A stretch of DNA of 36,970 bases, taken from assembly GCA_009841725.1 (NCBI GenBank), contig VYGS01000094.1, forward strand, positions 67,114 to 104,083. The letters are read 5' to 3'. A program made the position numbers and the translations under genes. Below, piece after piece: positions 4,796 to 20,134 of this stretch. Position 1 is the first letter of the stretch. Each line of letters begins with the position of its first letter. This DNA is from Gammaproteobacteria bacterium (GTDB taxonomy: Bacteria; Pseudomonadota; Gammaproteobacteria; Arenicellales; Poriferihabitantaceae). The notes under the pieces were generated by a model. That model saw nothing but the letters and a program-made list of their open reading frames with translations, had not been told where the DNA came from and did not search any database.

Positions 4796-5728
4796 TCATG
4801 CCACTTTCCGGGCCGTTCGAAAGACCGCGCTGCGTGAACGGGGATTCACCCTGATTTCCTCGGGGCTCGGCTTGAGCGGCTTGCCCATCCGGGCAAGGCG
4901 CGGCCGGATCATCTCGCTCGGCACGGGAAAGTCGGGAGGAAACGGGTCGCCGCGCGACTCGTTTCTGAAAAAGCGCTTGACGATCCGGTCCTCGATGGAA
5001 TGAAAACTGATCACGACCAGCCGCCCGCCCGGCGACAGCGCATCGAGCGCCTGCTCAAGCCCCTGCTCGATTTCCGAGATTTCGTCGTTGACCGCGATAC
5101 GGATCGCCTGAAAGGTCCGGGTCGCCGGGTGCTTGGTCTTTTCCCTGCGCGGCACCGCGGCGACGATGACACGCTCGAGGTCACCGGTGGTCCGGACCCG
5201 TCCGTGCGCCAGCGCCTTCTTGATCGCCACGGCAATCGCCCGGGAATACCGCTCTTCGCCAAACTTCCAGAGGGTCCGGGCCAGCTCCTTCTCCGGAACG
5301 GTCGTGATCCACTCCAGGGCGGTCATGCCGCAACTGTTGTCCATGCGCATGTCCAGCGGGCCGTCCCGCATGAAGCTGAAGCCCCGACGGCCGCTGTCGA
5401 GCTGGGGCGAGGACACGCCGAAATCGAACACCACCGCGTCCACCTTGCCAAACGCGTCAAGGACCTCAAGCTCCTCTCTCATTTTTGAAAAAGGCGCATG
5501 GCCGATCTCCCCCCCTCCGATACCCTGCCAGTGCCTGCGGGCATGCTCGACGGCCTCCGGATCGCGATCGAACAGGATCATCCTGGCGCGGCCAGACAGC
5601 CGGCCATGAATCGCGGCAGCATGACCGCCACGGCCATAGGTCGCATCCACCACCGTGTGGCACTGTTCCGGTTCGACGGCCTCGAGCACCTCATCGATCA
5701 TGACCGGAGTGTGGGCTGAACAGATCAT
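4796..5728 (-). CDS. rsmH: 16S rRNA (cytosine1402-N4)-methyltransferase
   Basis: HTPVMIDEVLEAV, DATYGRGGHAAAI, FDFGVSSPQLD, RRGFSFMRDGPLDMRMD. Confidence 0.96.
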   Translation of the reverse strand: MICSAHTPVMIDEVLEAVEPEQCHTVVDATYGRGGHAAAIHGRLSGRARMILFDRDPEAVEHARRHWQGIGGGEIGHAPFSKMREELEVLDAFGKVDAVVFDFGVSSPQLDSGRRGFSFMRDGPLDMRMDNSCGMTALEWITTVPEKELARTLWKFGEERYSRAIAVAIKKALAHGRVRTTGDLERVIVAAVPRREKTKHPATRTFQAIRIAVNDEISEIEQGLEQALDALSPGGRLVVISFHSIEDRIVKRFFRNESRGDPFPPDFPVPSEMIRPRLARMGKPLKPSPEEIRVNPRSRSAVFRTARKVA

Positions 5729-5738
5729 CTCATACCGG

Positions 5739-6197
5739 TCAGATCGACAGCTGCTCCATCTCCAGGGTGATGGCGGATGGATCGGGGACTTCCTTCAGCC
5801 ATTCGGCACGCCTGGCAACCCACAGATCCTCGCTCCAGATCTCGAACTTGTTGCCCTGCCCGATCATGAACACGGACTTTGTCATGCCCGCGAATTCCCT
5901 CAGGTGAGCCGGCAACAGGATTCGTCCGTTGCCATCCATTTCCACATCGTTCGCATGCCCAACCATGAATCGCTTCAGTTTCTGGTGCTCGGGATTGAAG
6001 CTGGGAAGCTCCACGATTTTCTGTTCCACCATGATCCACTGATCCACGGTATAGAGCCACAGGCAACGCTCTTTCGTGTTGTTGAGCGTCACGACCATAC
6101 TGCCGTCACAGACCTTGAGAATGGCCTCGCGATACCGTGCCGGTATCGCCAGCCTTCCCTTGCTGTCAAGCGCCAAAGATGAGGAACCCCGAAACAT
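5739..6197 (-). CDS. mraZ: Transcriptional regulator MraZ
   Basis: MFRGSSSLALDSKGRLAIPARYRE ... GNGRILLPAHLREFAGM; AbrB/MraZ-type repeats. Start reset to 6197. Confidence 0.94.
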   Translation of the reverse strand: MFRGSSSLALDSKGRLAIPARYREAILKVCDGSMVVTLNNTKERCLWLYTVDQWIMVEQKIVELPSFNPEHQKLKRFMVGHANDVEMDGNGRILLPAHLREFAGMTKSVFMIGQGNKFEIWSEDLWVARRAEWLKEVPDPSAITLEMEQLSI

Positions 6198-6558
6198 AAC
6201 GAACCTGGAATCGTCAATCCGCCGATTTCTTATCCTTGTGGCAACCAATTAATTGCATTTTTTGGCTTTCGGAAGGCCCGATTTCCCGATTTGCCGCCTT
6301 CAAAATCGGAGAGCGCCGGGATTCGCCATCGGGCGAACAATGAAATCGGACCCGTGAATTCGGACGATGCAAACCGGATAACGCGCCAAAACCTGCACGC
6401 TTCAACCCCTCTGTTCAACACATTTTTGCCGAGTCGGGGTATAGTTGAGACGGATCGATCATCTCCTTGTCCGACAAGCTTCCGGCATTCGTCCGTGCAA
6501 CCGGCCACCCCGCCGCGACCGCATCGGCCGTCGATGTCGGGAGGAGTCGAACCCTGGT

Positions 6559-8070
6559 GTGCGAATCATGAAGTCACGAGCCAGAATGCGCGCAATACGA
6601 GGCCGAAAACCGGCTGACCCGTCAATGCAGGACGGAACACGGATCGGGCTTCGCTGCGCACCCCTTTCCGAACAGGACGTCCAGAAGGTGCACCGCGCGG
6701 CACTCGACCTGCTTCAGGATGTCGGTCTGGCGAATCCGACGCCCCGCGTCAGGGAGCTCTGTATCGAGCACGGCTGCACTCTCGTGGAAGACGGGCGGCT
6801 GGCCTTTCCCCGTTCGCTGATCGAGGACGTGATCTCGAACGCCTCCAAGTCGTTCCCCGTGCACGGACGCGACGACAGGTTCAGCTTCGAGGCCAAGAGC
6901 GGCAGCGTCCGTTTCTGCACAGGCGGCGCGGCGGTGCAGATGCTGGACATGGACACCGGCCGCTACCGTCCGAGCACGCTCCGGGACATCTATGACCTCT
7001 CGCGTTTGTGCGACACGCTGGAGAGCATCCACTGGTTCACCCGGCCGGTGGTTGCCACCGATATTCAGGATATCTTCGAGCTGGACGTCAACACCGTGCT
7101 GGCCTGTGCAATGGGAACCCGCAAGCACATCGCGACCAGTTTCTGCAACGGGGAGCACGTGTACCGGATCGCTCCAATGCTGGACATGATCGCCGGTGGC
7201 AGTGGCCGGTTCCGGAAAAAGCCGTTCTGTACCGTCCATGCCACGACCGTCGTCTCTCCGATGACATTCGCACGCGACGGTCTGGATGCTGCATGCGCCG
7301 CAGTCGATATCGGCATGCCGGTTCATTGCCTGACCGGACCGCAAGCAGGAGCCACGGCGCCGGCCGCCTTGGCCGGGACGCTGGCGCAGGGTTGTGCGGA
7401 AAGCCTGGCCACCCTGGCTGTGGTCAACCTGCTGAAACCGGGACATCCGACCATTCTGGGCAACTGGACATTCGTTTGCGACTTGCGGACCGGGGCTTTC
7501 TGCGGCGGCGGGGCGGAACAGGCTCTTCTCGGTGCCGCATCCGGCCAGATGTCCGCCTTCTACGGCGTTCCAGGCGGCATGGGGGCAAGCATGACCGACT
7601 CCAAACTGCCGGACTATCAGGCCGGGTTCGAAAAGGCCTTCACCCTGATCATGGCGGCCCTTTCGGGAGGGGGGCTGGTCTATGAATCGGCCGGAATGCT
7701 GGCCAGCCTCATCGGATGTTCCCTCGAAGCCATGGTCATGGACAACGAAATTCTGTCGATCCTGAGCCGCCTCGCCCGGGGCATCGAGGTGACCGACGAG
7801 ACGCTATCGGTTTCCGTGGTCAGGGATTGCGCCAGGCAAGCCGGGCATTTTCTGGGCCACTCGCAGACGATTTCATTGATGGAATCCGAATACGTCTATC
7901 CGAAGCTGGCGGATCGGTCACCGCCGGCCGCATGGTATGAGGCGGGGGCTGTGGGCATGAGGGAGAAAGCGGCAGCCGTGGTGCGGCAAACCCTCGACAC
8001 GCATCAACCCCGGTACATTTCCGGCAAGGCCGAACGGTTGATCAGGGAGCATTATCCGGTGAGATTCTGA
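6559..8070 (+). CDS. Trimethylamine/betaine methyltransferase (MttB) superfamily protein, non-pyrrolysine type
   Basis: C-terminal MttB-like pattern SDSKLPDYQAGFEKAFTLIMAALSGGGLVYESAGMLASLIGCSLEAMVMDNEIL; no in-frame TAG. Start uncertain (GTG 6559, ATG 6568 or ATG 6625). Confidence 0.8.
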   Translation: MRIMKSRARMRAIRGRKPADPSMQDGTRIGLRCAPLSEQDVQKVHRAALDLLQDVGLANPTPRVRELCIEHGCTLVEDGRLAFPRSLIEDVISNASKSFPVHGRDDRFSFEAKSGSVRFCTGGAAVQMLDMDTGRYRPSTLRDIYDLSRLCDTLESIHWFTRPVVATDIQDIFELDVNTVLACAMGTRKHIATSFCNGEHVYRIAPMLDMIAGGSGRFRKKPFCTVHATTVVSPMTFARDGLDAACAAVDIGMPVHCLTGPQAGATAPAALAGTLAQGCAESLATLAVVNLLKPGHPTILGNWTFVCDLRTGAFCGGGAEQALLGAASGQMSAFYGVPGGMGASMTDSKLPDYQAGFEKAFTLIMAALSGGGLVYESAGMLASLIGCSLEAMVMDNEILSILSRLARGIEVTDETLSVSVVRDCARQAGHFLGHSQTISLMESEYVYPKLADRSPPAAWYEAGAVGMREKAAAVVRQTLDTHQPRYISGKAERLIREHYPVRF

Positions 8071-9291: not shown

Positions 9292-10419
9292 CTATTCGTC
9301 ATGCCCGGCGGTCGCGGCATGGCCAATATGGAGAGGGTGGTCATGGCTTTTGTTGAACAGATACCCGCCATCGTTAAACGGAACCCGGTCGGGCTGGATG
9401 CGCCCGGCGCGGTCGGTCGCACGGGTTCTGATCGCGTGACGTCCGGGAGCAGCCTGCCAGTCGAAGGCGAATCTGACCCAGGCCCATATCCGGTTCTCGG
9501 AGAGGATATCCGCCGGCGACCAGGTTGCACCGCCGTCAGCGCTCCACTCGACCAAGGCGATCTCGGCCCCGGGTGAATGGGCATAGCCGAACAGGCGATG
9601 TCGCCCGGCGGGCAGGCTTGCCGGCCAGGGCAGGGCGAGCGCGCTCTTTATGGTCTGTTCGGTGATCCCGATACCCTTGGCGGGGCTGCCCTCCGGTTTG
9701 GGATAGGCGTCGCCGCTCAGCACATAAAGCTCGGTATTGCGATACACCCACTGATGGGTCCGCGTGACGTCGATCCGGTCCAGCCACTTGATCGAATAGG
9801 TGCCGACCCAGCCGGGCACGATCAGCCGCGCCGGAAAGCCGTGATCGGCGGGCAGGGGGACGCCATTCATGCCGAGCGCGATCAGCGTGTCGGGATGCAT
9901 CGCCTTCTGGACAGGCAACGGCACCTTGATCCCGTCTTCGCCCTCATAGCCCCGGTCCAGGCCGACCGGGCAGATATGATGGGCGTCCTTCCTGATCCCG
10001 GCGGCCTGCAGGACATCCCGCAGCCGCACGCCGGACCACACGGCCATGCCGATCGCCCCCAGCCTCCAGCGGACCTCGGTCATGTGGGGGCGGCGGTCGA
10101 GCACTTCGCCCGACACCTCTTCGAACAAGACCCGATGGTTGCCGGCGCATTCGAGGAAGGCGGGCAGATCGACCTGCGGCATCGATTTCAGAGACCGGTA
10201 ATCCAGGGTGATCGCCTGTGTGACCCCGTCACCGCCAACGGCCAGCGACCACCGGTCGAGATCGACGACGGGCGGAGTGCCCACGCTGCAGACGAAGAAG
10301 CGCTCGTTCGGGGTGATGTAGCCGTCCTGTGTTTCAAAGGGCATCTCCAGCGCGCCCGGCAACCGGATGAACCCCGTCGTGTCCTTGGCGAATGCGGCAT
10401 CCGCCCTATTCGATGACAT
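9292..10419 (-). CDS. Sulfite oxidase-family molybdopterin oxidoreductase
   Basis: FLECAGNHR (candidate Mo-ligand Cys), WVGTYSIKWLDRI, and a C-terminal dimerisation domain with YGxAHSPGAEIALVEWSADGGATW. Start set to ATG 10419; no obvious signal peptide. Confidence 0.85.
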   Translation of the reverse strand: MSSNRADAAFAKDTTGFIRLPGALEMPFETQDGYITPNERFFVCSVGTPPVVDLDRWSLAVGGDGVTQAITLDYRSLKSMPQVDLPAFLECAGNHRVLFEEVSGEVLDRRPHMTEVRWRLGAIGMAVWSGVRLRDVLQAAGIRKDAHHICPVGLDRGYEGEDGIKVPLPVQKAMHPDTLIALGMNGVPLPADHGFPARLIVPGWVGTYSIKWLDRIDVTRTHQWVYRNTELYVLSGDAYPKPEGSPAKGIGITEQTIKSALALPWPASLPAGRHRLFGYAHSPGAEIALVEWSADGGATWSPADILSENRIWAWVRFAFDWQAAPGRHAIRTRATDRAGRIQPDRVPFNDGGYLFNKSHDHPLHIGHAATAGHDE

Positions 10420-11524
10420 GAACCGGTTCTCCGAGGACATCCATCTTCGGCGTGATTCCGAGACCGGGCGCCCTATTGAACCCGAGCACCCCGTCCCTGG
10501 CGCACACATGGCCATCGCCGGTCTGAACCTCGACATAGTCGGTCAGGTCGGTTGCATTCAGGCGGAACTTGGGAGGCGTGCTCCAGGCGAAATGGGCCAG
10601 CGCGGACGAGACGAATTCGCTGCCCCAGATGTCGTCCGGCACCGCGCCGATGCCCAGATCGACACAGACATCGCGCATCCGGCGCGCCTTGCTCAGGCCG
10701 CCGACGCGGCTGATCTTGATGGTGCAGTAATCCATCGCGCCCGCCTTCCAGGCGCGCAGCAAATCCTGCATTGTCTCGATGTTCTCATCCAGCTTGACCG
10801 GATTCCAGCACCGTTTGCGGAAGTCGATACATTCCTCCAGCGTCCGGCAGGGCTGTTCGATGATCACCGGCAGATTGCGCACCCCGGCGGCAATCCGCAC
10901 CGCATCGGCATAGGGCCAGGCGCCGTTTGCATCGCAAAGCGCCATTTCACCCGGCTCCAGAATGTCACAGCATGCTTCGATGATGGCGACGGCGGCGTCG
11001 GGGGTCGAAGCGCCCTTGAGCTGGAAATGCCGGATACCCTCGGCGCGGTAATCGCGGCAGCGCTACGCCCAGCCTTCGGGCGTGTCTTCGTGCTGACGGA
11101 ACAGATGCACGGTTCGATACAGGGGAATATCGCCCTCGTAATGGCCACCCAGTAGATGGCAGACCGGGCGACCCGTCGCCTTGCCGGCAATGTCCCAAAG
11201 CGCGGCATCGACCGGCGCCTTGACATACTGATCGTCCTTGAACTTGATGTCCCACATGCGGTTGAGCTTTTCGATCTGCAACGGATCTTCGCCAATGACC
11301 GTCCTGGTCAGCAGCGGAATGCCCGACAGCGCGGCCTCGCCCCAGCCCCGGCCGTAATGGGTGCCGATGGGGCAGACTTCGCCGAAACCGGAAATGCCTT
11401 CATCGGTGTCCAGCTGGACGATGACACTCAGATTGCCATCCGGGGCGAATCCTATGCTTCGCCGATAGCCGCCGCCCTTGGTCGGCAGATTCACCCTGTA
11501 CACCGAAGCCCTGACAATTTTCAT
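10406..11524 (-). pseudogene. Mandelate racemase/muconate lactonizing enzyme (enolase superfamily) gene interrupted by an in-frame TAG at 11063-11065
   Basis: N-terminal half (MKIVRASVYRVNLPTKGGGYRR...GWA) and C-terminal half (RCRDYRAEGIRHFQLKGAST...CDANGAWPYA...IEQPCRTLEE...KISRVGGL...DDIWGSEF) lie in the same frame, separated only by TAG. Resembles the 4-hydroxyproline betaine epimerase/dehydratase-type subgroup. Confidence 0.82.
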
Positions 11525-18887: not shown

Positions 18888-20134
18888 GAGGCGATGCCCG
18901 CAACCCTGAGCATGGAGTGCAGCAATACGTTGCAACCGGCCTCCAGATCCTCGGGGGTCGCATACTCGGCCTCGTTGTGACTCAGCCCGTCCCGGCACGG
19001 GACAAAGATCATGGCCGTCGGCACCACACGGCACACCTGGCACGCGTCATGACCGGCGCCCGAGACCATCCGCTGGCTGCGAAGGCCGAGGGCCTCCGTC
19101 GCGTCGCTGACAGCGCGAACACAGGCCGGATCAAACTCGACAGGAGGATTGTGCCAAACCGGGACAAGGTCGATTTCCGTCCCGTGCCTTGCCGCCATAT
19201 CGTCCAGATTCACCCTTAGCTCCTGTTCCATGTCGTGAAGTCGGGAATCTTCGGGGTGGCGGATATCGATGCTCATCCGGACCGCGCCCGGTATGGTGTT
19301 TCGGGAATCGGGCGATACCGACAAACAGCCCACCGTGGACAGCGCATGGGGCGGATTGTCGAGTGCAATCCGGTTGATCATCCCAACCGCTTCGCCGGCC
19401 GCGAGCAACGCATCTTTGCGCCTCGACATCGGAGTCGTTCCGGCATGGGAATCCTGGCCCCGTATGGTCGCGTCGAACCACTTCACCCCCTGGCCCCCGG
19501 TCACGATACCGATCTGGTTGCCCTCCGCCTCAAGTATCGGTCCCTGTTCGATATGGGCCTCGAAGAGCGCAGCCATCGGATGGTTTCCGCATGGCTGGCT
19601 GCCCAGGTAGCCGATCTGCTGAAGCGCTTCATACAGGGTGATGCCGGCCTGATCCTGTCGTGCCCAGGCATATTCCTTGTCGAACAGTCCGGCAAAAACA
19701 CCCGAGGCAATCATGGCCGGAGAAAACCTGGATCCTTCTTCATTGGTCCAATCCACGATTTCGATCGGCGCCTCGGTCTCGACACCGTTCTCGTTCAGCG
19801 TGCGAACCACTTCCAGTGCCGCCAGAACGCCGTAGATTCCGTCAAACCGGCCGCCATGCGGCTGGGTGTCGAGATGACTGCCTGCGCAGACCGGGGGCAG
19901 GGAATCGGTCTTTCCCGCCCTCCGGGCAAAGATATTGCCCATGTCGTCAACCGTTATCGAACACTGCTCCTCGACACACCATTGCACGAAGCGGTCCCGA
20001 CCGGCACGGTCTTCTTCGGTCAGGGCGAGGCGGCTCGATCCCCCGTGCTTGCCCGGGCCGATTTCGGCCATGGCCATGATGCTGTCCCAGAGCCGTTCTC
20101 CGTTCACGCGGAGCCGATGCATTGATCCGTTCAT
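18884..20134 (-). CDS. M20-family Zn-dependent amidohydrolase (N-carbamoyl-L-amino acid hydrolase / allantoate amidohydrolase-like)
   Basis: GSHLDTQPHGGRFDGIYGVLAALEV, DWTNEEGSRF, FEAHIEQGPILE, SGAGHDACQV. Confidence 0.88.
   Translation of the reverse strand: MNGSMHRLRVNGERLWDSIMAMAEIGPGKHGGSSRLALTEEDRAGRDRFVQWCVEEQCSITVDDMGNIFARRAGKTDSLPPVCAGSHLDTQPHGGRFDGIYGVLAALEVVRTLNENGVETEAPIEIVDWTNEEGSRFSPAMIASGVFAGLFDKEYAWARQDQAGITLYEALQQIGYLGSQPCGNHPMAALFEAHIEQGPILEAEGNQIGIVTGGQGVKWFDATIRGQDSHAGTTPMSRRKDALLAAGEAVGMINRIALDNPPHALSTVGCLSVSPDSRNTIPGAVRMSIDIRHPEDSRLHDMEQELRVNLDDMAARHGTEIDLVPVWHNPPVEFDPACVRAVSDATEALGLRSQRMVSGAGHDACQVCRVVPTAMIFVPCRDGLSHNEAEYATPEDLEAGCNVLLHSMLRVAGIAS

Follow-up and report, generated by a model that had tools for sequence, protein, structure and literature searches.

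The window, i.e. the whole stretch of 36,970 nucleotides analysed, carried on its minus strand a gene of the MR/MLE enolase superfamily split by an in-frame amber codon (Table 1). The minus strand around the amber read GAA GGC TGG GCG TAG CGC TGC CGC. This was the only internal stop between ATG 11524 and the terminal TAG; the frame was open elsewhere, with no frameshifts and no additional stops besides codon 154. In profile searches the two halves were matched separately, and above gathering scores, by MR_MLE_N (5' half, 1.4e-13) and MR_MLE_C (3' half, 9.4e-34): a capping domain followed by a barrel, as in other MR/MLE enolases, with one domain on each side of the amber. The halves also matched consecutive stretches (1-139 and 152-366) of NF043002, a single model of 366 positions whose position 1 was aligned to ATG 11524, ruling out a chance pair of open reading frames. 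The preliminary description of this DNA, which had placed an amber splitting an MR/MLE gene at this codon, was thus confirmed by the sequence and the profile matches.

Table 1. Coordinates of the interrupted gene, its neighbours and the loci compared with it (window positions unless another sequence is named).
Feature	Position	Strand	Basis or remark
MR/MLE enolase-superfamily gene	ATG 11524 to TAG 10406-10408	-	own terminal TAG is codon 373
5' half, capping domain (MR_MLE_N), codons 1-153	11066..11524	-	profile matches
In-frame amber stop TAG, codon 154 from ATG 11524	11063..11065	-	sequence reading
3' half, barrel domain (MR_MLE_C), all catalytic/metal-binding motifs, ends in own TAG	10406..11062	-	
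Molybdopterin oxidoreductase, sulfite-dehydrogenase-like, intact, downstream	9292..10419	-	
MttB-family methyltransferase, no in-frame TAG	6445-8070	+	TIGR02369 342 bits, cut-off 525
Mesorhizobium relic, unannotated, 5'-truncated	NZ_AP023251.1 267824-268633 (L090:4001-4810)		
Same-frame pair with TAG at 6065, one gene or two	L098:4956-7289	-	
Same-frame pair with TAG at 19400, one gene or two	L104:18801-19892	-	

The metal ligands and catalytic-region lysines of the MR/MLE enolases were intact and all located in the 3' half: FQLKG (Lys at 170), CDANG (197), IIEQP (221), KLDEN (244), IKISR (269) and DDIWG (297), in agreement with the earlier statement that these motifs all follow the TAG. Since the stop precedes every catalytic motif, the 153-residue product would correspond to the capping domain alone, without any catalytic residue. 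The stop lies close to the boundary between the two Pfam domains, as might be expected if the locus worked as two polypeptides, the capping domain and a barrel domain made by reinitiation, assembling with each other; this was considered highly unlikely, given that no ATG, GTG or TTG was found in frame after the amber before ATG 10945, itself beyond the first catalytic-region Lys, and that no homologue split at the same place was seen.

The fused reading scored 350.1 bits against NF043002 (cis-3-hydroxy-L-proline dehydratase), below the cut-off of 500, so the protein was classified, by sequence, as a relative of the cis-3-hydroxy-L-proline dehydratases and not as a tested member of NF043002. 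Solved structures related by sequence included PDB 4mgg (the nearest) and 2rdx. The window gene resembled the cis-3-hydroxy-L-proline dehydratase type in end-to-end homology, first Lys region, metal ligands and second Lys, but differed in carrying a 5-residue insertion ahead of the first Lys, a DDxWGS motif and the amber at codon 154. The nearest full-length homologues were about 43-45% identical, and no close orthologue above about 43% identity was found in 109 genomes of the order, 369 of the class and 399 of the phylum. In the six congeners there was no orthologue (best genus match, 31% identity), and the same genome kept intact MR/MLE paralogues, on contigs C119 (40%) and C123 (34%). A literature search found no publication bearing directly on the locus.

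The closest relative found was a relic on plasmid MesoLj131b3 of Mesorhizobium sp. 131-2-5, 54% identical (144/266) over residues 107-372. The relic had the 5-residue insertion and the DDxWGS motif in common with the window enolase, but its first ~100 codons were missing and a Ser (sense codon) was aligned to the window amber. A small hypothetical protein is annotated on the strand opposite the relic. Further decayed members of the family were present in relatives (G015:C108 and G025:C26).

Forty-one homologues, 35-47% identical in either half, were compared at the position aligned to codon 154, the partner residue being approximate because of the 5-residue insertion close by. The position was variable (A in 16, E in 7, G in 4, S in 4, D in 3, Q in 3 and others in 4) and none of the 41 carried a stop there. 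In-frame TAG codons in two of the matches were considered and rejected as counterparts: the G015 match was a frameshifted relic with stops elsewhere, and the TAG of the G019 match was the natural end of its gene, so the window stop was not common to either.

As for the state of the rest of the gene, the window protein deviated at 17 of 74 strongly conserved columns (residues 107-372). The Mesorhizobium relic deviated also at 12 of those 17, with an identical residue in four, so many of these departures are traits of the subfamily and not necessarily damage. Codon-position GC was 0.63/0.44/0.74 in the 5' half and 0.64/0.47/0.79 in the 3' half, near the values of the intact neighbour. An otherwise clean gene is what either a recent lesion or an error would leave, and it sets a weak upper limit on age.

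An error of sequencing, assembly or consensus would leave the gene intact and functional. The assembly is a draft in metagenome style (2.61 Mb, 168 contigs, 93.8% complete), there was no second lesion, the overlapping downstream gene was intact, and the catalytic motifs looked maintained, as did the subfamily residues and the codon-position GC; a single lesion with normal codon-position GC is just as compatible with a working gene misread in the consensus. Single substitution errors are, however, rare per base, and a plain substitution with no homopolymer indel is atypical of assembly artefacts. Such an error was considered rather unlikely; it is the main rival of a nonsense mutation, and less likely than it.

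The decoding apparatus of the genome was normal. Thirty-four tRNA matches were obtained and all their anticodons read (ARAGORN; one incomplete tRNA completed by hand, the partial tRNA at the end of contig C19, which was Val-TAC once the missing end was supplied). None of the 34 had a CUA anticodon, in a genome 93.8% complete, and the tRNA-Sec model returned just ordinary tRNAs with scores below the cut-off. Release factor 1 (RF1) was intact (511.9 bits). The best PylS match reached 31.7 bits (cut-off 178), and such matches were also given by 13 of 14 control genomes. The UAG-reading tRNA and synthetase of a UAG-recoded or pyrrolysine gene were therefore not found in the assembled 93.8%.

TAG terminated 64 of the 282 long frames (at least 300 codons) in a 337-kb sample, which represents about 13% of the genome and is not a census; the enolase gene and the overlapping downstream gene both end in TAG as well. 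The same sample was screened for split genes, defined as two open stretches in one frame, each 140 codons or longer, parted by one stop. Seven TAG pairs in which both sides had a coding-like composition were inspected. Four had an ATG at most 8 codons past the stop and look like adjacent genes; in two others (L098, TAG at 6065; L104, TAG at 19400) the next ATG lay 65 and 26 codons on, only ATG starts being considered. The enolase was the sole pair of the seven shown to be a single gene across the stop. Because of this, and of the TAG-terminated frames, amber is an ordinary stop here, as the preliminary description had maintained from the TAG ends it reported for gor, mnmE and rnpA.

Readthrough by a suppressor tRNA, pyrrolysine insertion or a leaky context, giving a full-length enzyme, would be compatible with the clean frame on either side of the TAG and with the C directly after it, a comparatively leaky context in bacteria; a suppressor could also sit in the ~6% of the genome left unassembled. 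It was considered very improbable in view of the tRNA, RF1 and PylS results, the lack of a conserved stop among the homologues and the RNA fold 3' of the amber, which resembled shuffled sequence (z 0.37) and showed no special structure. Even less probable is the passage of some ribosomes owing to a UAG suppressor that escaped assembly or recognition, with enzyme production low and perhaps regulated. The tRNA, RF1 and homologue checks suffice for setting recoding aside.

The downstream molybdopterin oxidoreductase gene started inside the end of the enolase gene, with an overlap of 14 bases. It had no orthologue in the six congeners, and its relatives in the order were rare and distant (36-38%). 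The MttB-family methyltransferase contained no in-frame TAG and is thus apparently of the non-pyrrolysine type. Together with the other neighbours, an agmatinase-like gene and an FAD-dependent oxidoreductase, it suggests an accessory region for amine or amino-acid catabolism.

The best explanation, to which we give a probability of about 0.7, is that an accessory catabolic gene of the MR/MLE group has recently become a pseudogene through a nonsense mutation. A point mutation would have turned sense codon 154 into TAG, translation would halt after 153 residues with the capping domain only, and the loss would be tolerated because the gene is accessory; we infer all three of its premises, namely a real base, a recent mutation and a loss made tolerable by accessory status. 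The stop removes essential residues in a genome with RF1 and no CUA tRNA found, and the pseudogene is supported by the single lesion, the normal decoding apparatus, the lack of an orthologue in congeners, the intact paralogues, the variability of position 154 among homologues and the decay of the Mesorhizobium relic and of other family members. The earlier description had preferred a recent nonsense mutation, or an error, to recoding, and the tests of tRNA, RF1, PylS, TAG usage and homologues agreed with it. Single-stop nonsense pseudogenes are a known kind in bacteria, and nonsense pseudogenes are common among accessory genes; the window gene resembles the former in that a single premature stop interrupts an accessory gene intact elsewhere, with no notable difference. 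The case counsels caution: when a draft genome shows a lone in-frame amber in a gene that is otherwise clean, what is seen is an ordinary pseudogene or a consensus error. The enzyme belongs to a rare, uncharacterised subfamily, accompanied by an overlapping molybdopterin oxidoreductase, and the nearest relative found is decaying as well.

Two other broken frames were observed. Within the same family of organisms, a gene related to the molybdopterin oxidoreductase (L123; G010:C111:5340-6389) had one in-frame TGA, and a frame on the plus strand at L109:4369-5577, broken by a TGA at 4945, looked by eye like an IS30-type transposase in decay.
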